From assembly GCA_017542425.1 (NCBI GenBank), contig JAFXXH010000069.1:1-64000 (forward strand): a stretch of DNA of 64,000 bases, in the 5' to 3' direction. Under the pieces are notes generated by a model, which was given only the letters and a program-made list of their open reading frames with translations, was not told the origin of the DNA and made no database searches. The DNA comes from Oscillospiraceae bacterium. GTDB taxonomy: Bacteria > Bacillota > Clostridia > Oscillospirales > Oscillospiraceae. A program made the translations under genes and the position numbers. Shown here piece after piece: positions 25,722 to 43,240 of this stretch (the first letter of the stretch is position 1; the number at the start of each line of letters is the position of its first letter).

Positions 25722-26198
25722 TTGCAGGAGGAAATCGAAAACAAGCTCGTCGTGCTGATTGAGAACTGTACCAAACTCACCGCGAGAGAACTGCGCCAGG
25801 CGCTGGAGAAGGTGCTGGCCAGAGTCAAAAACAGAACGACAATTCAAACGCAAAAGGCCGCCGAGCCCCACGGCAGGATGACCGTAAAGGAGCTGGCGGC
25901 CAAGGATAAGGGGATGCAGAGCATCGAGGTCAACGACGGCAGCATCGGTGCGTTCCAGCGCGTGGCCAGGAAGTACGGCATCGACTTCGCCCCCTTCAAG
26001 GTCAAGGGCGAAAACCGCTACCTGGTCTTTTTCAAGGCCCCGGACGCCGACGCCATGACCGCGGCCTTTACCGAGTACACGCAAAAGCAGGTCAAAAAGG
26101 CGTCCCGCCCCTCCATCCTGCAAAGGCTGGAGCATTTCAAAAGCCTCATCCAGCAGCCCAGGAAGGAAAAGACCCGTCACAAGGAGCCGGAGAGATGA
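25722..26198 (+). CDS. pcfB: PcfB-like conjugation protein (DUF3801)
   Basis: A 158-aa protein of the PcfB/DUF3801 family (TARELRQALEKVL, GRMTVKELAAKDKGM). In pCF10-like systems PcfB helps bring the relaxosome to the coupling protein, and the coupling-protein gene follows with ATGA overlap. The start is TTG at 25722 with GGAGGTG upstream. Length is near the family norm, so it appears intact. Confidence 0.85.
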   Translation: MQEEIENKLVVLIENCTKLTARELRQALEKVLARVKNRTTIQTQKAAEPHGRMTVKELAAKDKGMQSIEVNDGSIGAFQRVARKYGIDFAPFKVKGENRYLVFFKAPDADAMTAAFTEYTQKQVKKASRPSILQRLEHFKSLIQQPRKEKTRHKEPER

Positions 26199-27982
26199 AG
26201 CAGATCCAGTTCAAGAAGCTCCTGTTTCTCCATGCGCCCTATCTGCTCTTCGCCCTGCTGGGCACAAAGCTGGGACAGGCGGTACGGCTCGCCCCCGGCG
26301 CGGACTTCTCCGCCAAAGTCCTGCACATCCTGGATGGCCTGACGGCGGCGTTTCAAAGCATCCTGCCCAGCCTGCACCCCTTGGATCTCTGCGTGGGTCT
26401 CGCGGCGGCGGCGCTGATCCGGCTGGCGGTCTGCCTCAAGGGGAAGAACGCCCGAAAGTTCCGCAAAAATGTGGAATACGGCTCAGCCCGCTGGGGCACG
26501 GCGGAGGACATCGCGCCCTACGTCGATCCCGTCTTTGCCAACAACATCATCCTGACCCAGACGGAGAGCCTTACCATGTGCAGCTGCCCGAAGGACCCCA
26601 AGACGGCGCGGAACAAAAACGTGCTGATCATCGGCGGCTCCGGCAGCGGCAAGACCCGCTTCTGGCTGAAGCCCAACCTGATGCAATGCACGTCGGAAAC
26701 CTACCCCTGTTCCTTTGTCGTCACGGACCCGAAAGGCAGCATCGCCGTGGAGTGCGGAACGCTGCTGCAAAAGCAGGGCTACCGGCTCAGGATTCTCAAC
26801 ACCATCAACTTCCAAAAGTCCATGCACTACAACCCCTTTGCCTACATCCACAGCGAAAAGGACATTTTGAAACTGGTGACAACCCTGATTGCCAACACCA
26901 CAGGCAACGCCAAGTCCGGGGACGACTTCTGGGTCAAAGCGGAAACCCTGCTCTACACGGCGCTGATTGGCTACATCTATTATGAGGGGCATGAGGAGGA
27001 AAAGTGCTTCTCCACCCTGATCGAGATGATCAACGCCATGGAGGTCCACGAGGACGACGAGGAATTCCAGAACAACGTGGACCTGATGTTTGCCGAGCTG
27101 GAACGGAAGAAGCCGGAGCACTTCGCTGTGCGGCAGTATAAGAAGTACAAACTCGCCGCTGGCAAGACCGCGAAAAGCATCCTGATCTCCTGCGGCGCAC
27201 GACTGGCCCCCTTCGACATCCAGGAGCTGCGGGACCTGACGGCCTACGACGAACTGGAGCTGGACACTTTGGGCGACAGGAAAACGGCGCTGTTCCTTAT
27301 CATGTCAGATACGGACGACACCTTCAACTTCCTGATCGCCATGTGCTACAGCCAGCTTTTCAACCTGCTCTGCGAGAAAGCCGACGACGTGTACGGCGGG
27401 CGTCTGCCCGTCCATGTGCGCTGCCTCATCGACGAGGCGGCCAACATCGGCCAGATTCCCAAGCTGGAAAAGCTGGTGGCAACGATCCGCAGCCGGGAGA
27501 TCTCCTGCTGCCTGGTCCTGCAGGCCCAGTCCCAGCTCAAAGCCCTGTACAAAGACAACGCCGACACCATCATCGGCAACATGGACGCCACGATCTTCCT
27601 GGGCGGAAAAGAGCCGACCACACTGAAAGAGCTCTCCGCCGCCCTGGGGAAAGAGACGGTGGACACCTACAACACCGGAGAGAGCCGGGGGCGTGAGGTG
27701 TCCCATTCCTTGAACTATCAAAAGCTGGGCAAGGAGCTGATGAGCATCGACGAACTGGCGGTTCTGGACGGCGGCAAGTGCATCTTGCAGCTCCGGGGCG
27801 TCAGACCCTTCCTGTCCCAAAAGTACGACATCACCAGACACCCACTGTATCGCTGGACTTCCGATTACGACAAACGAAACGCCTTTGACATCTCGCGCTT
27901 TCTGTCCTGCCGCATAAAACTGAAGTCGGACGAAGTGTATCAGGTGTACGAGGTAGATTTGTCCAATCAAGCACCCGTCTGA
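26195..27982 (+). CDS. Type IV coupling protein (VirD4/TraG-like)
   Basis: A 595-aa ATPase that would pass the relaxase-DNA complex to the secretion channel. Two N-terminal membrane segments (about 10-28 and 62-82), Walker A GGSGSGKT (147-154) and Walker B CLIDEAANIG are present; the C-terminal half matches the TraG/TraM-recognition region. Overlaps pcfB by four bases and precedes maff2, the Tn1549-type order. It appears intact and could serve the nested IME if a channel were supplied by another element. Confidence 0.9.
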   Translation: MKQIQFKKLLFLHAPYLLFALLGTKLGQAVRLAPGADFSAKVLHILDGLTAAFQSILPSLHPLDLCVGLAAAALIRLAVCLKGKNARKFRKNVEYGSARWGTAEDIAPYVDPVFANNIILTQTESLTMCSCPKDPKTARNKNVLIIGGSGSGKTRFWLKPNLMQCTSETYPCSFVVTDPKGSIAVECGTLLQKQGYRLRILNTINFQKSMHYNPFAYIHSEKDILKLVTTLIANTTGNAKSGDDFWVKAETLLYTALIGYIYYEGHEEEKCFSTLIEMINAMEVHEDDEEFQNNVDLMFAELERKKPEHFAVRQYKKYKLAAGKTAKSILISCGARLAPFDIQELRDLTAYDELELDTLGDRKTALFLIMSDTDDTFNFLIAMCYSQLFNLLCEKADDVYGGRLPVHVRCLIDEAANIGQIPKLEKLVATIRSREISCCLVLQAQSQLKALYKDNADTIIGNMDATIFLGGKEPTTLKELSAALGKETVDTYNTGESRGREVSHSLNYQKLGKELMSIDELAVLDGGKCILQLRGVRPFLSQKYDITRHPLYRWTSDYDKRNAFDISRFLSCRIKLKSDEVYQVYEVDLSNQAPV

Positions 27983-28051: not shown

Positions 28052-28176
28052 ATGGCATTTTTCAATTCCGCAGTAGACGTGCTCCAGACGCTGGTCATCG
28101 CCCTCGGCGCTGGCCTCGGCATTTGGGGCGCAATTAATCTTTTGGAAGGATATGGGAACGACAACCCCGGCGCAAA
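28052..28176 (+). pseudogene. maff2: maff2, 5' part (split by IME)
   Basis: MAFFNSAVDVLQTLVIALGA and on to GNDNPGA is the N-terminal two thirds of the Maff2-family small membrane protein of the ICE mating apparatus. After 28176 the frame runs into foreign sequence and stops (AHVS). The missing end is found in frame at 36503-36595. Joining 28176 to 36505 restores codons GCA AAG TCC CAG. Good ribosome site TTTTGGAGG upstream. Confidence 0.9.
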
Positions 28177-28265
28177 TGCTCATGTGTCGTAAAGAAGCAA
28201 CCCCAGATTGAGCAACGACCGCCATCCCCGCTATTCCGTGAAAACTTTATCTGGAGGATGACGCT

Positions 28266-28628
28266 ATGAGCATCGAACTGGACTACATCAAGGTCGGGGA
28301 CTACTACCTCCCCAATCTGATACTGGATGAGGCGCCCGAACTGCGGCACTTTATTGGCAAATACGCTGACCTGCGGCGCGAGTACCTCAAGGAACACCAA
28401 CTCGCCCTCTGGATGGTACTGGTCAACAACGGAACGGCACTTGACCATCTGCGCGAGATCGAGGACGCGGCGAACGCTCGCCTTGACGCTCTCCTGCCGG
28501 TACTCACCAAGAACGCGGGCGCGACGGAGGTGCTGAAAGCAAGCGACCCGCTGAAATGGGTCGGGCTGATGAACGCTTGCAAGGCGCAGGCGGAGGAAAT
28601 CATCTTTGACGAACTGATTTACATCTGA
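28266..28628 (+). CDS. TnpV family transposon protein
   Basis: A 120-aa protein of the TnpV family (YIKVGDYYLPNL, WVGLMNACKAQAEEI), found with large serine recombinases in Firmicutes elements. Its exact role is unsettled; a recombination accessory role is often suggested. The ATG follows TGGAGGATGACGCT. First gene inside the left end of the IME; full family length. Confidence 0.88.
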   Translation: MSIELDYIKVGDYYLPNLILDEAPELRHFIGKYADLRREYLKEHQLALWMVLVNNGTALDHLREIEDAANARLDALLPVLTKNAGATEVLKASDPLKWVGLMNACKAQAEEIIFDELIYI

Positions 28629-28634
28629 ACTTCA

Positions 28635-28685
28635 AAAACACTTTTGCCCGAATGGTCGCAATTCAGTCCGGGAAAAAGTGTTTTG
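28635..28685 (+). terminator. Hairpin after tnpV
   Basis: AAAACACTTTTGCCCG pairs imperfectly with CCGGGAAAAAGTGTTTT. The following stretch to 29199 has no confident gene: a 61-codon ORF at 28921 lacks a ribosome site. Confidence 0.5.
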
Positions 28686-29199
28686 GGCAAAAAGAAAGGA
28701 GGCGCACGCCCCCTAATTGCTGTATGTGTCTTTCATGGTGAATCGGAACACCCCAAAAACAAGACACAGTAAGGCTTCATGATAAGCTTAAAAAGCTTTT
28801 TCATTTAGCATCACTCCTTTCCCAAACCAAATGGTTTGTAAGCCTTTCGGCCTACGACCATCATAACAAAAAATTGTTTAATTGTCAACAAAAAATATCA
28901 AGCGTCAAAATCAATCTATGTTAAATACGCGAAAAACTACCACTAAACGCGCCGCTATCCATACGGAACAGCGACGTGCCGAACTGCGAACAGAGTACGC
29001 CGTTCCATGTGCGTTTTCACCGTTCCGCACGACCTCATGCGAAACAGTGAAATGCGAAGCCCTCTCCTGTGAGTTGGGCATCATGGACGGCGTTTCTGCT
29101 TGAATCGGCATCATCCAAACTTTACACTCGTAAGCGTACTCGCTCCGCGAAAGCGCGAACGAAGCGCGCCGACAGGCGAACACAAAAGGAGTTTTGAAA

Positions 29200-29418
29200 A
29201 TGAATACGAGAAATGAAATCAAGGCGATCATCGTGCGCGAGGGCATGACCATGAGCGAGATCGTCGAGAAGTTGGCGGAGCAGTACGGGTGGAGCGCCAG
29301 CGTCCCCAACCTTTCGGGGAAACTGCGGCGCGGCTCGCTGCGCTATCAAGAGGCCGTCGAGCTGGCTGACGCGCTGGGCTATGATCTGGTCTGGCAAAAG
29401 CGTAAGGAGCGAAGATGA
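29200..29418 (+). CDS. Small helix-turn-helix-like IME protein
   Basis: A 72-aa protein with pattern MTMSEIVEKLAEQYGWSASV and YQEAVELADALGYDL, resembling a short XRE-like DNA-binding domain. Copies are common in Firmicutes mobile elements and are sometimes mislabelled in databases. AAAGGAG precedes the ATG at 29200; a TTG at 29194 is less well placed. ATGA overlap with tnpW implies coupling. Probably a regulator of the element. Confidence 0.7.
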   Translation: MNTRNEIKAIIVREGMTMSEIVEKLAEQYGWSASVPNLSGKLRRGSLRYQEAVELADALGYDLVWQKRKERR

Positions 29419-29615
29419 GCGACAAGACCCCGCAGAAGGCCACCGGCACCGCCCAACGCGCTCCCGATTGCGTGACCGAGGTGCGCATGGGTAACACGAT
29501 CCTCACCGTGTCCGGCTACTTCAAGGAGAGCGCCACCGAAACCGCCGCTGATAAAATGGCAAGGGCTATCAAAGCAGAAGTGGCCTCGGAGCATCACAGT
29601 TTCAAAAGCGCATGA
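29415..29615 (+). CDS. TnpW family transposon protein
   Basis: A 66-aa protein with the TnpW pattern (DCVTEVRMGNTILTVSGYF, ETAADKMARAI). It is a companion of TnpV in serine-recombinase transposons and of unknown mechanism. Overlaps the preceding HTH gene by four bases. Confidence 0.85.
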   Translation: MSDKTPQKATGTAQRAPDCVTEVRMGNTILTVSGYFKESATETAADKMARAIKAEVASEHHSFKSA

Positions 29616-29685
29616 TGGTAATCAAAACGACAAAATGGTTGGATAATAACAGTGTCGTGGCGGGGTAATTCCCGCCGCGGTCTTA

Positions 29686-30489
29686 TCAATTCTCGGTTAT
29701 ATACTGAGGAAGTTTGTCGATATGCACCTCTGCCTCGGCAAACAGCACCGCCTTTCCCGCGATGCGCACTCTGTTGCCATCCATGGTGCAGTAAAGCGTT
29801 CCACCGCGTTTTGACGCCTGATACGCCTTGATTTCCGCCTTGCCCAAACGCCGCGCCCAAAGTGGAGCAATCATGCAGTGCGTCGAGCCGGTAACGGGGT
29901 CTTCCAGGACATTCAGCTTCGGTGCGAAACAGCGGGATACGCTGTCGGACTTGCTGCCTCGCGCAGTCACGGCGGTCAGCAGACCGTCCAGCCGCGCCAG
30001 CTTGTCCATATCCGGCTTAAGCGACCTAACCGCTTCCTCCGAATCCAGCACCAGCAGCAAATCGCGGTCAAAGAACGCCTCAATCGGCCTGACGCCGAGC
30101 GCCGCTTCCATTTCGTCCGTCACGGGAACAGGCTTTGCCGTGTATGCGGGAAAGTCCATCTCAAGGAGCTCGCCCCTACGCGTGACGGTCAACTCCCCCA
30201 CTTGCGTGTAAAACCGCAGCGTATCTGCATCTTTACAGTAGAAACGGAACAGCGTGAAGGACGTACCCAGCGTGGCGTGGCCGCAAAAGTCGATCTCGCC
30301 GCCCGGCGTAAACCAGCGGAGACGGTAGCCGTCCCTCTCCGGCACCGCGAAAGCGGTTTCGGACAGGTTATTTTCGATTGCGATACTCTGCATCAGCGCG
30401 TCGGCAGGCCATTTGTCCATCACGCAGACCGCTGCGGGATTGCCGTGGAACACCTTGTCGGTAAACGCGTCGACCATGTACTGTTTCAT
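29686..30489 (-). CDS. PhzF family isomerase-like enzyme
   Basis: A 267-aa PhzF-family protein. It has HGNPAAV near the N-terminus, the catalytic-type Glu in NNLSETAF (E44), DFCGHATLG and DPVTGSTHC. The family fold is two-lobed, and members isomerise or epimerise diverse small molecules; most are uncharacterised. It overlaps the threonine-aldolase-like gene by four bases (ATGA), so the two are translated together and likely share a pathway. Slightly shorter than typical family members. Substrate unknown. Confidence 0.85.
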   Translation of the reverse strand: MKQYMVDAFTDKVFHGNPAAVCVMDKWPADALMQSIAIENNLSETAFAVPERDGYRLRWFTPGGEIDFCGHATLGTSFTLFRFYCKDADTLRFYTQVGELTVTRRGELLEMDFPAYTAKPVPVTDEMEAALGVRPIEAFFDRDLLLVLDSEEAVRSLKPDMDKLARLDGLLTAVTARGSKSDSVSRCFAPKLNVLEDPVTGSTHCMIAPLWARRLGKAEIKAYQASKRGGTLYCTMDGNRVRIAGKAVLFAEAEVHIDKLPQYITEN

Positions 30490-31541
30490 TGGTTCATCGT
30501 CTCCTTTTCACCGAGGATGCCCGCCAGCCGCTCCGCATCTTCCAGCCTTGTTGCCCAGCTTGCCGCGAGGCGGACGACAGTATGCGCCTCGTCATACTTT
30601 TCCCAAAAACTGAATTCCACCGACTCCGAAAGGCGCTCCATTTCGTCGTTTGTCAGAACGACAAACACCTGATTGGTGGGCGAGTCGAACGCAAGGCGAT
30701 AGCCCGCTTTCTGAAACGCAAAGCGCAGGGTGTCCGCCGCGCGAAGAGCGGGCTTGCCAATCTCCATGTAAAGCCCGTCTGTGAACAGCGTGTCGAATTG
30801 AAGCCCCAGCAGACGCCCCTTTGCCAGAAGCGCGCCGTGCTGCTTGACGATGGTAAAGAAATGCGGAAGCAGGGTTGGGTCAGGGATGACGACCGCTTCG
30901 CCAAAGAGCGCGCCGCACTTCGTCCCGCCGATATAGAATACGTCGCAAAGCCGCGCGAGGTCAGGCAGCGTCACATCGTTTTCCTCGCAGGCGAGGGCGT
31001 AAGCCAGCCGCGCGCCGTCCACATACAGCGCCATGTGATAGTCGTCGCAGACGGCGCGGATGGCGGTCAGCTCCGCGAGAGAGTAGAGCGTACCATACTC
31101 CGTGGGCTGGGACAGATAGACCATACCCGGCATGACCATGTGCTCACGGTTGCCATCGTGCCAGTAGGTTTCGCAGTATTCCCGGATCTCAGCGGCGTCG
31201 AGCTTGCCCAGCTTGTGCGGAAGGGAGAGCACCTTATGCCCGCCATACTCGATGGCACCCGCCTCATGGACGCTGATGTGTCCGCTCTCTGCGGCAATCA
31301 CGCCCTGATAGGACCTCAGCAGCGCGTCGATCACGGTGGCGTTGGTCTGTGTGCCGCCGACCAGAAAATGCACGGCGGCATCCGGGCAACTACAGGCAGC
31401 ACGAATCTTCTCCCGCGCGTCGGCGGTGTTTTCATCCAAACCGTAGCCGGCGCTTTTTTGCAGGTTCGTTTCGCAGAGACGCTCAATAATGGCAGAGTGT
31501 GCCCCCTCTTGATAGTCCGACGCAAAAGACAGCTTATTCAT
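30486..31541 (-). CDS. Threonine-aldolase-like PLP enzyme
   Basis: A 351-aa fold type I PLP enzyme of the beta-eliminating lyase/threonine aldolase family. Visible are VGGTQTNATV for phosphate binding, DGARLAYA (D175) for the pyridine nitrogen and GGTKCGA with the Schiff-base lysine K208. Members split beta-hydroxy amino acids such as threonine to glycine and an aldehyde, but the exact substrate is not shown. GGAGG precedes the ATG at 31541. First gene of a two-gene operon with PhzF, divergent from lysR. Confidence 0.85.
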   Translation of the reverse strand: MNKLSFASDYQEGAHSAIIERLCETNLQKSAGYGLDENTADAREKIRAACSCPDAAVHFLVGGTQTNATVIDALLRSYQGVIAAESGHISVHEAGAIEYGGHKVLSLPHKLGKLDAAEIREYCETYWHDGNREHMVMPGMVYLSQPTEYGTLYSLAELTAIRAVCDDYHMALYVDGARLAYALACEENDVTLPDLARLCDVFYIGGTKCGALFGEAVVIPDPTLLPHFFTIVKQHGALLAKGRLLGLQFDTLFTDGLYMEIGKPALRAADTLRFAFQKAGYRLAFDSPTNQVFVVLTNDEMERLSESVEFSFWEKYDEAHTVVRLAASWATRLEDAERLAGILGEKETMNQ

Positions 31542-31576
31542 GGCGTTTCCTCCGTTTTCTGGTGTATGTTGAGGCT

Positions 31577-31605
31577 ATCATACCCCAAGTCTTGACATAA
31601 CGCAA
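31577..31605 (-). promoter_or_regulatory. Promoter of the aldolase-PhzF operon
   Basis: Minus-strand -35 TTGCGT (31600-31605), a 17-base spacer and -10 TATGAT (31577-31582). It overlaps the divergent lysR promoter. Confidence 0.7.
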
Positions 31606-31620
31606 ACGGCAGATTATTAT
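31592..31620 (+). promoter_or_regulatory. Promoter of the IME lysR gene
   Basis: TTGACA (31592-31597), a 17-base spacer and TATTAT (31615-31620). The -10 lies inside the left arm of the palindrome at 31610-31638, so bound regulator would block its own promoter. Confidence 0.75.
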
Positions 31621-31638
31621 AATATTCATAATAATCTG
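31610..31638. promoter_or_regulatory. Palindromic operator for the LysR regulator
   Basis: CAGATTATTA and its exact inverse TAATAATCTG are separated by nine bases. Length and A/T-rich arms fit a LysR-type recognition site. The position, over the lysR -10 and next to the aldolase promoter, fits autorepression plus control of the divergent operon. Confidence 0.75.
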
Positions 31639-31658
31639 TTATGGATTGGGGCGAAAAT

Positions 31659-32528
31659 ATGGACAGTGTCAAATGCGAGGCGTTTTTGACCGCCGTTGAC
31701 CACGGCAGTCTGACAGCGGCGGGCGAGCTGTTGGGCTATACCCAGCCAGGAATCACGCGCATGATTCACTCATTGGAGGAAGAATTAGGCTTTCCCCTGT
31801 TGGTTCGTTCCTCAAAGGGCGTTGTTCCTACGGCGAACGGCAGAACTATGATTCCACTTTTCCGCGAAATCGTCCGTACACAGAAAAACGTTGAGGAAGC
31901 GGGCAGCGAGATACGGGGCATCCTGCGGGGCGTGCTGACGGTGGGAAGCTATTACAGCGTGTCGGCAATGCTCCTGCCCGCAGTCCTGAAGCGGTTCGGG
32001 CATGACTACCCCAATGTTCGCGTCAAGCTGCGCGAGGGCGGCAATCAGGAGATGTCGCAATGGCTCACGGAGAAGTCGGTGGATTGCTGCTTTGCGGCAA
32101 AGCCGTCTGAAAATACGGCCTGCGACTGGATACCGCTTCAGGAAGACGAGCTTGTCGCTTGGCTCCCGCACGACCATCCGAGAGCGGCGGACACGGCGTT
32201 TCCCGTCGCCGCGCTGGACGGCGAGCCGTTCATCATCACTATGCCCGATCAGGACACGGACATCGACCGCCTGCTGGCGAAGCACGGGGTCAAGCCGGAC
32301 TTCCGCCTTTCCACGGCGGACGCCTTCACCACCTACTGCATGGTGGAGGCGGGGCTGGGCGTCAGCTTCAACCAGAGGCTGATCTTCCAGAAATGGAAGG
32401 GCAGCGTCGTCGCGCTGCCCTTTGACCCGCCGCAGTATGTTACGCTCGGCATCGCCGTCCCCTCGCTCCGGGAGGCATCGCCCGCGACGAAGAAGTTTAT
32501 AGATTATGTGAGGACGAATATAGCATAA
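31659..32528 (+). CDS. LysR-family transcriptional regulator
   Basis: A 289-aa regulator with an N-terminal winged helix-turn-helix (GSLTAAGELLGYTQPGITRM, about residues 14-35) and a C-terminal co-inducer domain. The start at 31659 fits LysR alignments; an upstream ATG at 31641 would add six residues and overlaps the operator. Divergent from the aldolase-PhzF operon, which it most likely controls in response to a metabolite of that pathway. Confidence 0.9.
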   Translation: MDSVKCEAFLTAVDHGSLTAAGELLGYTQPGITRMIHSLEEELGFPLLVRSSKGVVPTANGRTMIPLFREIVRTQKNVEEAGSEIRGILRGVLTVGSYYSVSAMLLPAVLKRFGHDYPNVRVKLREGGNQEMSQWLTEKSVDCCFAAKPSENTACDWIPLQEDELVAWLPHDHPRAADTAFPVAALDGEPFIITMPDQDTDIDRLLAKHGVKPDFRLSTADAFTTYCMVEAGLGVSFNQRLIFQKWKGSVVALPFDPPQYVTLGIAVPSLREASPATKKFIDYVRTNIA

Positions 32529-32608
32529 GAATATTGGCATATGTTAAGTAAACAGTATCTTGCTTCTCAACTCGAAAGTCTCTATGCATAGCTTGGATTA
32601 TTATACCA

Positions 32609-32644
32609 AGGGCGCACTTATATACATGGTCTGGCGACCATGTA
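32609..32644 (-). other. Candidate oriT of the IME
   Basis: On the minus strand an inverted repeat TACATGGTC/GACCATGTA (32623-32644) is followed by TAAGTGCGCCCT (32609-32620), two bases away. An inverted repeat next to this core is the layout of RSF1010/R1162-type (MobQ) transfer origins. A MobA/MobL relaxase, the matching enzyme class, is encoded 500 bases away. The nick would fall after the final T of the core, near 32609. The palindrome also extends outward to GCGCAC/GTGCGC. Confidence 0.8.
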
Positions 32645-32662
32645 TGTGCGCTCTGCGAGGCG

Positions 32663-32695
32663 AGAGCCGAAACTTCCGATAGTTCCGGCTCTTTT
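32663..32695 (+). terminator. Terminator downstream of lysR
   Basis: AGAGCCG pairs with CGGCTCT, extended by AACT/AGTT across one mismatch, followed by TTT. It separates the cargo from the mobilisation genes. The rest of 32696-32844 shows no gene. Confidence 0.65.
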
Positions 32696-32844
32696 CGTCG
32701 CTGGTGCTCCGTACAAGGGCTGCGCCCTTGCGCCGCTTCGCGGCTATCCTCTTTCCCCCTGCGGGTAACAACAGCATACCACAATCACGACAGTTTTGCC
32801 ATCACCGGCATGACGGTCAATTTTTATCTACAAGGAGGTCAACT

Positions 32845-33141
32845 ATGAATCCCAAACTTGAAAAGCTCCGTGCCGAGCAAGAGCGCGTCCAGCGGGAGCT
32901 GGAACAGGCGCAGCACCAGCAGCAGAGATTGGAAAACCGTCTCAGCTACTTGAGCACCGGCGAGCGCCGCGCAAGAGCGCACCGACTGATTACGCGCGGC
33001 GCTGCCATCGAGAGCATCCTGCCCGCCGTCCAGCCCATGACCGAGCGCGCGTTTTATGAACTCATGGAAACGGTACTGACGCTGCCCGTCGTTCAATCCG
33101 TCATTCAGTCCCGCTTGCCCCAAACAGGCGGTGATCCCTGA
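32845..33141 (+). CDS. DUF3847 protein, relaxase companion
   Basis: A 98-aa protein with an N-terminal coiled coil (KLEKLRAEQERVQRELEQAQ) followed by a conserved basic segment (LSTGERRARAHRLITRGAAI), typical of DUF3847. Such genes precede MobA/MobL relaxases and may act as relaxosome accessory proteins. CAAGGAGG precedes the start at 32845, and its stop overlaps the relaxase ATG. Confidence 0.85.
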   Translation: MNPKLEKLRAEQERVQRELEQAQHQQQRLENRLSYLSTGERRARAHRLITRGAAIESILPAVQPMTERAFYELMETVLTLPVVQSVIQSRLPQTGGDP

Positions 33142-34601
33142 TGGCGCTCTATCACTTCCACGCCGACATCGTGACCCGCTCTGCCGGTTCCTCCGTCGTC
33201 GCGTCCGCCGCCTACCGAGCGGGAGAAAAACTGCACAGCGCGTACTATGGCGAGGACGCCGATTACACCCACAAGGGCGGCGTCCTCTGCGCCGAAATCT
33301 TCTTGCCGCCCAACGCGCCCGCCGAGTACAAAGACCGTGAAACGCTCTGGAACGCCGTCGAGAAAGTGGAGCGAAACCCGAAAGCGCAGCTTGCCTATAC
33401 TTACGACTTCGCCTTGCAGAATGAGCTGACGATTGACGAGAATATCGCGCTGGCGCGGCGCTTTGTCGAGGAACAGTTTTTGAGCCGGGGCATGATCGTC
33501 GATTTTGCCATCCATGCGCCAGACAAGGAGAAAGGCGGCATCCCCAATCCGCACGTCCATCTGCTCTGCCCAATCCGTCCCATCAAAGAAAACGGCAAGT
33601 GGGGCGCGAAGCAGCACCGCGTCTACCGTATGGACGAGCGCGGCGAACGCATCCGCGACGAGAACGGCAAGTACGTTTTCGACGCCGTGCCGACCACCGA
33701 TTGGGGCAAGAAAGAAACGCTCCTGCACTGGCGCGAGGAGTGGGCGAACTACGTTAATCGGGAATTTGCGAAAAAGGGCTTGCCCTGCCGTGTCGATCAC
33801 CGCACGTTGGAGGAACAGGGCATTGACCGCCCGCCGATGCTCCACGAAGGGCCGAACGTCCGGGCAATGGAGGCAAAGGGCATCGCCACCGACAAGGGCG
33901 ACTTCAATCGTTGGGTAAAAGAAACCGGGGTGGCGCTTCAAAAGCTGCGGCAAAAAATCAAAGAGCTGCTGGCGTGGCTCAAGGAAATCAAGGAGGAGCT
34001 GTCCGCGTCAAACGAACCGACGCTGATGGATTACATCAACGATTACTACGACGGGCGCAACGCCGGGGCGTGGAGCAACAAGGCAAAGGTCGGCAACCTC
34101 CAAGCGCGCGCTGACGCCTACAACTTCTTGATGCAACGCAAGCTCTACACCGTGGATGATCTGATTGCCCACACGGACGCGCTTTATCATCATATGGGCG
34201 AGGTCAAGGACTCGAACAATCGGAGGCGGGCGCGCGTCAAGGAGATTGACGAGCTTTTGAGGCAGGCGGAGAACTATCGGGAGTTCAAGCCTGTCTACGA
34301 TCAGATGAACGGCATAAAATTCAAGAAGCGCCGCGAGGCGTTTGCCTCGGAGCACGAACGCGAGCTGGATATGTTTTACATGGCGCGCCGCAAGCTGAAA
34401 CCGTATGCCGCAGACAACAAGCTACCCGTCGCAAGCTGGAAGCAGGAGCGAGCACGGTTACAGCAGGAGATCGCCGTCACCGACGCGCAGCACGCGGAGA
34501 TCTGGCACGAGGTAAAGGAACTGCTCAACATCCAGAAATGCGTCGAGGACGTGAGACGCCAGCAGAGGACGCAGAACAAGGAGCGCGGTATTGACCGCTG
34601 A
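33141..34601 (+). CDS. MobA/MobL-family relaxase (MobQ)
   Basis: A 486-aa relaxase. The N-terminal MobA/MobL domain has ASAAYRAGE (a Tyr near 25 is the likely nucleophile) and the metal-binding HVH at 138-140 with His125 upstream. The C-terminal half is helical and charged (about 250-486). It should nick the oriT at 32609-32644 and pilot the strand through a helper conjugation channel. Its start overlaps the DUF3847 stop by one base. Complete, in contrast to the truncated relaxase of the host ICE. Confidence 0.9.
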   Translation: MALYHFHADIVTRSAGSSVVASAAYRAGEKLHSAYYGEDADYTHKGGVLCAEIFLPPNAPAEYKDRETLWNAVEKVERNPKAQLAYTYDFALQNELTIDENIALARRFVEEQFLSRGMIVDFAIHAPDKEKGGIPNPHVHLLCPIRPIKENGKWGAKQHRVYRMDERGERIRDENGKYVFDAVPTTDWGKKETLLHWREEWANYVNREFAKKGLPCRVDHRTLEEQGIDRPPMLHEGPNVRAMEAKGIATDKGDFNRWVKETGVALQKLRQKIKELLAWLKEIKEELSASNEPTLMDYINDYYDGRNAGAWSNKAKVGNLQARADAYNFLMQRKLYTVDDLIAHTDALYHHMGEVKDSNNRRRARVKEIDELLRQAENYREFKPVYDQMNGIKFKKRREAFASEHERELDMFYMARRKLKPYAADNKLPVASWKQERARLQQEIAVTDAQHAEIWHEVKELLNIQKCVEDVRRQQRTQNKERGIDR

Positions 34602-34706
34602 CAGCATCGTGGTTTGCAAAACGCAATTCATGACGCTTTTCTTTTTGCCGTCACTTGCGATAATCCCATCAATCGAAATTCTGTCATTCTGACAATCATA
34701 AAGAAG

Positions 34707-36405
<1,699 letters not shown>

Positions 36406-36408
36406 ACC

Positions 36409-36445
36409 GACCAAATCCGGCGCGGCGCTGACGCCGGATTTGGTC
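36409..36445 (+). terminator. Hairpin after the serine recombinase
   Basis: A perfect 14-bp stem GACCAAATCCGGCG/CGCCGGATTTGGTC directly after the stop codon. No adjacent T-run; a T7 tract lies 20-30 bases on. Confidence 0.6.
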
Positions 36446-36502
36446 AGGCGATGATGGTACTAATTTTTTTGAGCGGATTTACTTCTTTATCGAACATGAG
36501 CT

Positions 36503-36595
36503 AAGTCCCAGGGCATGAAGCAGCTCATGGCGGGCGGCGGTGTGGCGCTGATTGGCACGCTTTTGGTGCCGCTGCTGTCCGGCCTGTTTGTCTGA
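36503..36595 (+). pseudogene. maff2: maff2, 3' part
   Basis: Codons for KSQGMKQLMAGGGVALIG and on to PLLSGLFV complete the Maff2 protein begun at 28052. It has no start of its own. Precise excision of the IME would restore the gene. It is followed after about 60 bases by the VirB6/TrbL-like gene. Confidence 0.9.
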
Positions 36596-38600: not shown

Positions 38601-41600
38601 ATGGGAACGATTTATGATGCGCTTGACTTCATCAGGAGTTCCGCCACATCCGAAAAGGACAAAGGAACAAAGTTTGAACGGCTGTGCCGTTTCTTTTTGA
38701 AGAATGACCCGCTTTGGAAAGCGCGTTTTTCCGATGTTTGGATGTGGGCGAACGCACCCACCAACGACGGTGCAGACATTGGCATTGACCTGGTTGCCCG
38801 AGACCGTGAGGACGGCACATATTGGGCGATTCAGTGCAAGTGCCTGGACGACGGTGCCACATTGGAATACAAGCCCGTCGGCACCTTTTACGGAAAGGCC
38901 GGCGTGGACGGGACCTATCCTCACACCATGCTCATCACGACGGCTGACAGATTGAGCAGTCATCTGGAAACCGTGGCGGACAGTTGGAAGACGGTTCGCA
39001 TCTATACGGATGATATGGCGCAGTCCGAGATCGACTACGCCGACTGGATCGAGGGCAGGGCGACGACCACAAGGGTGCTGAAGCGGCCTCGGGAGCACCA
39101 GTCGGAAGCGATCCGCGCCTGCCTGAACAAGTTCCGGACATATGACCGCGGAAAGCTCATCATGGCCTGCGGCACAGGAAAAAACAATCACGGCGCTCCG
39201 CCTGACCGAAGCGCTGCTGCATGACCAGGGAAAAACCGGGGGGCGCGTTTTGTTTCTCGCGCCTTCGATCGCATTGGTCGGACAGTCCATGCGGGAGTGG
39301 GCAAACCAATCCCAACTGCCGCTGGAATGCGCCGTCGTTTGTTCGGATACCAAGGCATCCAATCTGGACGAAGACACCTGGGAATCATCTCTGCGGGATT
39401 TACCGTATCCCGCATCCACCGATCGGGAAGCGGTCTATGCCCAGATGAAAGAGGTGGCTCCGAACAGCCTCTCTGTGATTTTCTCCACCTATCAGTCCAT
39501 CCAAGTCGTGTCCGACGCACAAAGGATGGGGCTGCCTGCTTTCGATCTCATCATTTGCGATGAGGCCCACCGCACCACGGGCATGGTGGAACAGGGCAAG
39601 CAAAACGAAGCCAGTGAATTTGTCAAGGTCCATGACAACGCAATCATCCACGGCAAAAAGCGTCTGTACATGACCGCGACGCCGCGCATCTATGGAGACC
39701 GCGCCGTTCGCATCGCCAATGCGGACTCCTATATCGTGTCTTCCATGGACGATGAGGAGGTGTTTGGCCCGGAGTTTTACCATCTGTCTTTTGGCAGGGC
39801 GATAGACGAAGGCTTGCTGACAGACTATAAAGTAATCGCCCTTACGGTTGGGGAAGAAACGGTCAGCGAGGTCTATCAACGGGCGATGGAGGAAGAGGGC
39901 GGCGGCTTCAGCATCCCGGAGACTGCCAAGATGATTGGCTGCTGGAAGGGTCTGCTGGATCAGGGAAATGCCAACGGTTCCCCGTTGAAAAATGCGGTCG
40001 CATTCTGCGGCACCATCGCAGAATCCAGGCGCATGGCGGACAACTTCAAGAAGACCGTTGATATCTATCTGGATTATGAGAAGGAGCGGGGAAAGGAGCT
40101 TCCGGAGTTCCGCTGCAAGCTCCAGCATGTGGACGGCACGATGGACTCCAACACCCGGCGTGAGCGTCTGCGCTGGCTGGAGCAGACCGAGAGCGGTTCA
40201 GATGCTGCCTGTCGCATCCTCTCCAACGCCCGCTGTCTGGCCGAAGGTGTGGACGTTCCGAACCTGGACGCCGTCATTTTTCTCCAGCCCAAAAAGTCCC
40301 AGATCGACATCATCCAGGCGGTGGGCCGCGTCATGCGAAAGTTTGAGGGCAAGAAATACGGCTACATCATTCTCCCGATCGTGATCCCTGCGGGCATGAC
40401 GGCGGAACAGGCGCTGGACGACAACGAGACCTACGCCGTCGTTTGGGAGGTCCTCAAAGCGCTGCGAAGCCATGATGAGCGGCTCGACGCCCGGATCAAT
40501 GCGCTGCCCTACGATAAGGACCATGCAGTTCCTGTCGTGAATACCGTAGATGCTTTGAACCATCTGAAAGCAGCTGAAGAAGATGACAAAGCGGCAGAAC
40601 AGTTCTACGGGAGCCTTTTCCCGGACGGGAGCGACGCATCCCAGCGGCTGCAGGAGGCCATCAACGCGCTCATCGTCCGAAAGTGCGGAACCAAAGTATA
40701 CTGGGATGTCTGGGCAAAGGACATCGCGGAGATCGCCAGACGCCACATCCAGCGCATTGGAGAGATCGTCCGCACGGACGAAAACGCCCATTCGGAATTC
40801 TGCAAGTTTCTGCGCGGGTTGAAAGACTCCCTGAACGAGTCCATCACCGAGGAACAGGCGGTCGAAATGCTGGCCCAGCATATGATTACGCTCCCGGTCT
40901 TCGAGGCGCTGTTCGCCGGAGTCGGCTTTGCCCGAAGCAATCCCGTTTCCATCGCAATGGAACAAATGCTGACGGTGCTGCGGCGACAGACCCTGGAAAC
41001 GGAATCGGAGAAGCGGGAACTGAGAGACCTCTATGCCTCGGTCCGCATGAGAGCGGGCGGCATCCGCACCGACGCCGGTCGGCAGTCGGTGATCAAGGAC
41101 CTGTATGAGTCGTTTTTTCAGGAGGCTTTTCAAAAAACCTCCGAAAAAATGGGCATTGTGTACACGCCGAATCAGGTGGTGGACTACATCCTCCACGCAA
41201 CGGATCGGCTGCTGTATCGGGAATTCGGGCAGCATCTTTGCGACAGAGATGTCCACATCCTCGATGCGTTCACCGGTACAGGAACCTTCATCGTCGATCT
41301 CATCCACGACAGGGAACTCATGCCGGACGAGAAGCTTCCGTATAAATATCGCCATGAGATCCACTGCAACGAGATCATGCTGCTGGCATACTACATTGCT
41401 TCGATCAACATCGAGCACGCCTTTCACAGTCGAATCGGCGGAGAATATGAGAGCTTCCCCGGCGCTGTGCTGACGGATACGTTTCAGATGTACGAGGAAA
41501 ATGATCCGCTGGACGTGGAACTGTTCATCGAGAACTCCGAGCGCGTGCTGAGGCAGATGGACACGCCGATCCATGTTCTGATCGGCAACCCGCCCTGGTC

Positions 41601-43240
41601 CTCCGGCCAGAACAACGCCAACGAGAACAACGCCAACGAGAGTTACCCGACCCTAGACGCCCGGATCGCGGAAACCTACGTTGCCGGAACACAGGCCACC
41701 AACAAGAATTCCCTGTATGATTCCTATATCCGGGCTTTCCGCTGGGCGTCGGACCGTATCGGGGAGAAGGGCATTGTCGCCTTCGTGACGAACGGCGGCT
41801 GGCTCCGTTCGGATTCCGCCAATGGCTTCCGCACCTGTCTGACCAGGGACTTCAATTCCATCTATGTGTTTGACCTGCGAGGCAACCAGCGGACACAGGG
41901 CGAGCAGTCCCGAAAAGAGGGCGGCAAGATTTTTGGCTCCGGCTCGCGTGCGCCAGTAGCGATCACGCTGCTTGTGAAGAATCCCGCCTCCGCAGAGCGC
42001 GGTGTGATATATTATCACGATATCGGCGACTACCTAACGCGGGAGGACAAGCTTTCCATCGTGCGGGCGTCCGTTGCGAAAGAGCCATTTGAATGGGACA
42101 TTCTTCATCCAGACCGACATGGGGATTGGCTGGAGCAGCGGAATGACTCCTGGTATGGCTTTGCACCGATGGGGCTTGAGAAGCGAAAGGAACCCAGGGG
42201 CATCTTTGAGATCTGGAGCAGAGGAGTTGCTACAGCAAGAGATAGTTGGGTATGGAATTATTCCTTTGATAAACTCCAAGAAAATGTTCAGAGCACGATA
42301 GCTTTCTATGAGGATGAAAGATTGCGCTATTCAGTATTTGACGGATCTTTGGCCATTAACAATTTTGTTGAATATAACGAAATGCGGATCAAATGGAATC
42401 GAAGTCTTCTTGATCAGTGCAGAAGAAACAAAGAAATCGCTTTTCATTCTGAGAATGTTGTCGAAGGAATGCATAGACCGTTTTGCAGACAGTGGTTGTA
42501 CTTTGGAAGTGAGCTCAATGATATGGTTTATCAGATTCCGAAGCTGTTTCCCGCTGGGAAAGAAAACCTTGTTATTGATGTATGCGACCGTGGTGTTCTC
42601 ATTTCCTCTATGCTACCGGATCTTGAATTGATGCACCACGGACAGTGCTTCCCTCTGTATTGGTACGAAGACCGGGGCAAAGGGAAATACATCCGCCACG
42701 ACGCCATCACCGATGAGGCCCTGATGTTCTTCCGCAAGACATATCCCAACGGCGTCGCAGGGCGCACAAAGTATGCACGCAGAAGAATGATCGAAAAAGA
42801 AGATATTTTCTACTATATCTATGGAATCCTCCATTCCAAAGAGTATCGCAGCCGCTTTTCGGCCAATCTGAAAGCGGAATCCGGAAACCGGAAAGCTGGA
42901 ACCGGACAAGTCCACGCTGGTCTATAACAGCCGCCTCACGTTCAAAGCCATTCCAGAGGCCGCCCATCGCTACGTCGTGAACGGACGCAGCCCGCTGGAG
43001 TGGATGATCGACCGCTATCAGGTCAAAACCGATGCATCGTCTGGCATCGTAAACGATCCCAATCTGTTCAGCGACGACCCGCTTTACATTGCGAATCTGA
43101 TCCGGCGTCTGGTCACAGTGTCGGTAGAGACCATGAAAATCGTCGATACGCTTACCAAGATCCATGAAAAGGATTGTTATCTGGATTTCCCGGAAGGGTG
43201 GAAAATGCAAAGAGATGCAGGCGGCCCGGGCAACGATTGA
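38601..43240 (+). pseudogene. Type ISP restriction-modification enzyme, two lesions
   Basis: A single-chain restriction enzyme of about 1500 residues in origin. In order: Mrr-like nuclease (D63...Q78-C-K80), SF2 helicase (DEAH, TATP, QAVGRVMRK), coupler, adenine methyltransferase (TGTGTF motif I, NPPW motif IV) and target-recognition C-terminus. Lesion 1: an A6 run at 39179-39184, where A5 would keep Walker A as GTGKT, shifts the frame. Lesion 2: near 42870-42905 sequence is missing; the tail resumes in another frame (KLEPDKSTLVYNSRL). The second part, 39142-42927, is open for 1261 codons. Likely inactive, and replaces VirB4-region ICE genes. Confidence 0.85.

Follow-up and report, generated by a model that had tools for sequence, protein, structure and literature searches.

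We identified a site at positions 32609-32645 on the minus strand of the 64,000-nucleotide stretch of DNA under analysis (hereafter the window) that, to judge from its sequence, is very probably the origin of transfer (oriT) of an integrative and mobilizable element (IME), and a further, well-conserved relative of the RSF1010-type oriT, a kind that is already known. Read directly on the minus strand, the site consists of GAGCGCAC, ATACATGGTC, GCCA, GACCATGTAT, A, TAAGTGCGCCCT and TGG. The first part of interest, which we call P4 (32622-32645), is a perfect 10-bp inverted repeat, ATACATGGTC(GCCA)GACCATGTAT, with a 4-nt loop; its letters, its fold and the covariation of its stem in relatives mark it as a putative relaxase recognition hairpin. 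After a 1-nt spacer follows the nick core TAAGTGCGCCCT (32609-32620), whose letters are exact and whose nick is assigned by homology to RSF1010 and pIP501. An inverted repeat followed by a core on this strand is what the original prediction had described, and both are present where it put them, although its 9-bp arms (32623-32644) sit inside the longer repeat of 10+10 bp. Its comparison to the MobQ layout of RSF1010 also holds, as the repeat and then TAAGTGCG^CCCT lie antisense to a MobQ relaxase gene, matching the RSF1010 substrate (PMC4814116) and the sites of IncQ1, pSK41 and pRE25. The MobQ core (T/G)AAGTGCG^CC(C)T is found here as an exact TAAGTGCGCCCT, with an inverted repeat directly 5' of it on the cleaved strand, a MobA/MobL relaxase with the tyrosine and HUH motif alongside, and conservation with the cognate relaxase across relatives. 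The exact TAAGTGCGCCCT has a single occurrence in the organism's own 2.04-Mb genome; however, when up to two mismatches are allowed, the core alone is found 6 times versus 5.4 expected, which is not significant, and since this is chance level we dropped the core alone as evidence for an oriT. The combination of an exact core with a perfect repeat of at least 9 bp located 0-3 nt upstream is expected only ~1e-6 times per 64-kb window.

Genomes and plasmids yielded relatives of the relaxase, and among these 85 distinct MobQ loci had sufficient sequence upstream. The hairpin and core were found antisense within 2.6 kb upstream of mobQ in 64 of these 85 loci, in the same place and orientation, so the loss from sister IMEs that the original prediction had named as grounds for giving it up is not what we see. 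Neither the sense strand upstream of mobQ (0/85 loci) nor either strand of the downstream regions (0/39) contained a hairpin with a core, and 21 of the 85 loci had no site detectable by this pattern. These counts supersede those from an earlier, stricter pattern (45/84), which missed imperfect stems. The covariation score of the stem was 0.329 versus a mean of 0.152 for shuffled alignments, none of 500 shuffles scored as high, and the score was far above those of slid controls; the core columns (9-10 nt) are invariant while the stem bases change on both sides, and at pairs 5 and 6 of P4 all four Watson-Crick types occur among the relatives. The relaxase of a sister IME (L004) shares 96% identity with that of the window over residues 1-257; the stem of this IME (ATACGTCCGTC/GACGGATGTAT) differs yet pairs, which fits the report that MobA of RSF1010 contacts only the base of the stem (PMC4814116). 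When we built and calibrated a covariance model of the oriT, R1, it matched in 92 of 300 genomes of the family and 23 of 291 of the class, with one match in the organism's own genome. Two relatives merit a separate remark. On the Campylobacter coli plasmid pCC14983A-1, an IME-like segment encodes DUF3847 and a MobQ of 49% identity, has a similar oriT and adjoins an aminoglycoside resistance gene; the presence of this segment on C. coli plasmids points to cross-phylum spread. In another related element, a fluoride riboswitch (RF01734; L025:3611-3683) lies near the oriT and presumably leads a cargo gene.

The position of the nick differs from the one first proposed, which was just past the core's last T. 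The RSF1010 substrate is tabulated as cut at TAAGTGCG/CCCT (PMC4814116), and the nick of pIP501 TraA has been placed at 5'-GpC-3' (PMC4981023). Because homology to these two cut sites puts the nick four bases earlier, after the G of TAAGTGCG, we predict nic at TAAGTGCG^CCCT, between 32613 (G) and 32612 (C).

The nearby MobA/MobL relaxase on which the prediction leaned is encoded at 33141-34601 on the plus strand (486 aa; PF03389, E 4e-82), scores 239.7 bits against the NCBIfam MobQ equivalog NF041496 (cut-off 200), aligns to PDB entries 4ht4 (NES; E 4e-26) and 2ns6 (R1162 MobA; E 2e-6), and has both Tyr25, catalytic by alignment, and an HxH motif (HVH). The oriT lies antisense about 500 bp upstream of this gene. 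Between them is a gene for a DUF3847 protein (32839-33141, plus strand; PF12958, E 2e-26), a putative relaxosome accessory protein or regulator, which neighbors mobQ in the relatives too. A domain search found downstream a large serine recombinase (34783-36405, plus strand; Resolvase, Recombinase, zinc ribbon and DUF4368), the integrase of the IME. The element has the ends TGCTCATGTGTCGTAAAGAAG and AGCTCATGTTCGATAAAGAAG, which are imperfect 21-bp inverted repeats, is flanked by AA (28175-28176 and 36503-36504) and splits maff2; when the flanks are joined, a 71-aa Maff2 ORF results that resembles the intact one in a related locus (L050). Because of these ends, the restored Maff2 ORF, the serine recombinase and MobQ, we delimit an 8,328-bp IME inserted in maff2 (28177-36504), having its own integrase and relaxase and defined ends in a target gene, as the IME setting originally suggested would have it. 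No type IV secretion system (T4SS) genes were found within 28177-36504. The element also encodes a TnpV-family protein (28266-28628, plus strand; PF14198, E 4e-29) and a TnpW-family protein (29415-29615, plus strand; PF14202, E 3e-10), and by domain search a cargo of a PhzF-family isomerase (29686-30489, minus strand), a PLP-dependent enzyme resembling beta-eliminating lyases and threonine aldolases (30486-31541, minus strand) and a LysR regulator (31641-32528, plus strand). This cargo (29686-32528) is metabolic and not of the resistance type. The carrier of the IME is an ICE of the Tn5252/Tn1549 type, whose VirD4-like coupling protein of the CD1115 family (26195-27982, plus strand; NF045973, 552.6 bits, cut-off 250) is a possible helper. 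Elsewhere in the host ICE, a large helicase/methyltransferase-like gene (38601-42927) is split between two reading frames, an ORF of 207 aa overlapping one of 1261 aa near 39142-39224, and looks like a frameshifted restriction-type enzyme.

The functional oriT probably extends beyond the 36 bp first listed, covering about 32592-32744. From 5' to 3' the cut strand presents P0, P1, P2, P3 (with a GCA loop), a CGCAC box, P4, the core with nic, and P5. The minus strand of 32585-32760, folded in single-stranded form, has a z-score of -6.3, with none of 200 shuffles as good, and the median in 49 relatives is -5.7 versus -0.6 for tiles of the window. P0, GCCGC(GAA)GCGGC (32732-32744), is recognized from its fold and in the relatives; P1, CAAGGGC(GCA)GCCCTTG (32714-32730), has a fold whose like stands at the equivalent place in the relatives; P2 (32663-32692) is a folded 12-bp stem, AGAGCCGGAACT(ATCGGA)AGTTTCGGCTCT, with one G.T pair; and P3, CTC(GCA)GAG (32651-32659), is a mini-hairpin seen in the letters that covaries in the relatives (CTC/GAG, TCC/GGA, TTC/GAA and ATC/GAT). 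All of these, as well as the following two features, are on the minus strand. The CGCAC box (32646-32650), which lies within GAGCGCAC, is the exact reverse complement of the GTGCG just 5' of nic and is nearly invariant among 47 distinct relatives; a CGCAC/GTGCG pairing is possible, but since these columns hardly vary, covariation gives it neither support nor refutation. P5, CTTGG(9 nt)CCAAG (32592-32610), is a hairpin just 3' of nic, recognized from its fold and the relatives. It is a perfect stem (CCCTT..AAGGG and variants) in 36 of the 49 relatives, whereas the window copy is degenerate, with 5 bp and a 9-nt loop, and weaker. A terminator-like role for P5 was rejected, being seen in some relatives only, and the notion that the box and the post-nic hairpin are novelties of this oriT family was discarded, as both are found in IncQ1. 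In the closest sister IME (L004:5438-5477) the post-nic hairpin is extended into a longer palindrome, in which the nick core occurs once more, inverted and on the opposite strand.

This weakness of P5, together with the location of the IME on a contig of a fragmented genome, could point to a dead oriT, the relic of an element that no longer transfers. However, the core, the box, P4 and every gene of the element are intact, with open reading frames for the relaxase, DUF3847 and the recombinase, and the ends and the target site are clean, so we regard a relic as unlikely. A reading that we consider quite improbable takes the hairpin array to be a leader RNA, an attenuator or a small RNA of the DUF3847-mobQ operon, the likeness to the core being secondary. 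It would account for several hairpins with a covarying structure and for the T-rich, terminator-like DNA after the post-nic hairpin in many relatives, and SGI1 does require an RNA encoded beside its oriT (PMC9299015); however, it leaves aside an invariant core of 9-10 nt with the same letters as MobQ nick cores defined by experiment, and Rfam families gave no match at the site or at the oriTs of the relatives, the weak sub-threshold hits being taken as chance. The excess of G.T over A.C mismatches (10 versus 4) leans to the T-strand, from numbers that are too few and that single-stranded DNA would fit equally. An additional RNA role beside the oriT function may exist. An operator palindrome for LysR or DUF3847 is the least credible explanation and very improbable in spite of the location between the LysR gene (31641-32528) and the DUF3847 gene (from 32839) and of the ability of MobQ relaxases to autoregulate at their oriT, as pIP501 TraA does (PMC4981023), since the site goes with mobQ in relatives carrying unrelated cargo and its stem letters, unlike those of an operator, vary freely while the pairing is preserved. 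By analogy with TraA, autoregulation by the relaxase at the site is possible.

Taking the site as an oriT, we propose that the serine recombinase would excise and circularize the IME, giving the expected junction GAGCTAATGCTC, after which the element's own MobQ would bind the base of the P4 hairpin and cut the minus strand at TAAGTGCG^CCCT (32613/32612). By the precedent of RSF1010, pIP501 and NES, Tyr25 would stay covalently joined to the 5' C; the transferred strand would then leave 5' end first by way of the cargo genes, with the relaxase gene entering last. A type IV channel and a coupling protein would be supplied in trans, probably by the surrounding host ICE. More speculatively, the neighboring hairpins and the CGCAC box might expose the nick strand or hold it single-stranded, and might help termination or priming. 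The site is very probably where the 8.3-kb cassette is cut and from where it is sent to other cells.

Known systems share much of this design. RSF1010/R1162 (IncQ1) have the same TAAGTGCG^CCCT core with a repeat of about 10 bp directly upstream on the cut strand, and an IncQ1 plasmid (L225) also has GAGCGCAC upstream and a post-nic hairpin, CCCTAC-AAA-GTAGGG. However, IncQ1 has an extra hairpin between the box and the repeat, 3-4 nt and not 1 nt separate its repeat from the core, and its accessory proteins are MobB and MobC, whereas the window element has DUF3847. As the 37-nt IncQ oligonucleotide used in PMC4814116 was cut without the CGCAC box, the box is dispensable for in vitro cutting there. 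The pIP501/pRE25 (Inc18) and pSK41/pGO1 plasmids have the same core and adjacent repeat and a NES-like relaxase (PDB 4ht4), and pRE25, like the relatives of the window site, has a hairpin after nic (CCCTTAG...CTAAGGG); the CGCAC box was not found in the oriTs of these plasmids, which, unlike the IME, are self-transmissible with their own T4SS. Clostridial and Paenibacillaceae MobQ plasmids (L096, L097, L098 and L101) have, upstream of mobQ and antisense to it, a CGCAC box, a hairpin and a TATAAGTGCG^CC core, as in the window, but they are replicating plasmids, and their sites are unannotated as oriT. IMEs inserted in maff2 of ICEs of the Tn5252 superfamily have been described (PMC5357655, PMC5704250 and PMC12904643), and both IME_Rho_tet and the streptococcal maff2 IMEs resemble ours in their serine recombinase and their relaxase with an accessory protein. 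IME_Rho_tet, the description of which mentions no oriT (PMC12904643), is defined by a ribosomal protection (RPP) tetracycline resistance gene, a relaxase, a recombinase and a 21-bp TIR, and its 3' boundary lies 81-90 bp after the recombinase stop. Judged by this published description, the window IME is not a member, as it carries no tet gene and its boundary is at 99 bp.

The R1 matches also led to oriT modules that stand alone. For 12 of 20 chosen hits (L160-L163, L166-L172 and L175), a search covering ~8 kb or longer on the side where the relaxase gene would lie found no MobQ relaxase; a few of the others were cut by contig ends or carried a relaxase. Several solitary modules are cassettes among chromosomal genes, and many have in common a left-end motif, GGTGTNCGTAANACAGTTAA, which occurs at 22 places in 21 of the 300 genomes, with nic 159-598 bp after it in the solitary cassettes. 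In 16 of 17 distinct cassettes with both motif and oriT, a host ORF reading toward the cassette has its stop 24-130 nt past nic, and 15 of the 17 have an A-run at the left end, terminator-like on the other strand; therefore, the cassettes share one orientation, with a gene on one side and an apparent terminator on the other. Solitary modules without a relaxase that have this setting and the left end GGTGTNCGTAANACAGTTAA were noted at L160, L167, L168, L169, L170, L172, L175, L198, L200-L202, L208, L210 and L212-L216. Two of the 12 hits above, L163 and L166, contain a serine recombinase and an oriT, no gene for MobQ having been found in the sequence searched, and are candidate relaxase-less IMEs. 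Larger elements with a gene resembling tnpV begin with GGTGTNCGTAANACAGTTAA too, and run off the contig ends. We suggest tentatively, as a reading that is somewhat less than even in our judgment, that the oriT module has spread by itself in related gut genomes as cassettes with the hairpins and a complete MobQ nick core but lacking a mobility gene, mobilizable in trans by MobQ relaxases and forming tiny transfer elements or Hfr-like starts of chromosomal transfer. A partial literature search returned no description of miniature relaxase-less oriT cassettes. The spread of REP sequences by relaxase-like HUH proteins (PMC8266576) is a possible analogy. As many copies of the oriT motif have no relaxase nearby, the motif alone is no proof of a working oriT.

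IMEs of gut Clostridia spread cargo and resistance genes, and to our knowledge precise oriTs are rarely annotated in them. An exact nick prediction is now available for the oriT in the window, and R1, which detects an oriT in about one third of the sampled genomes of the host family, marks which elements could be mobilized. Both the box and the post-nic hairpin, to which accounts of RSF1010 usually give little emphasis, recur in oriTs ranging from those of IncQ1 plasmids to those of gut IMEs. While the site itself is of moderate interest, the solitary modules, if they work, are the most novel lead, and would show what else in the genomes that harbor them MobQ relaxases could move.
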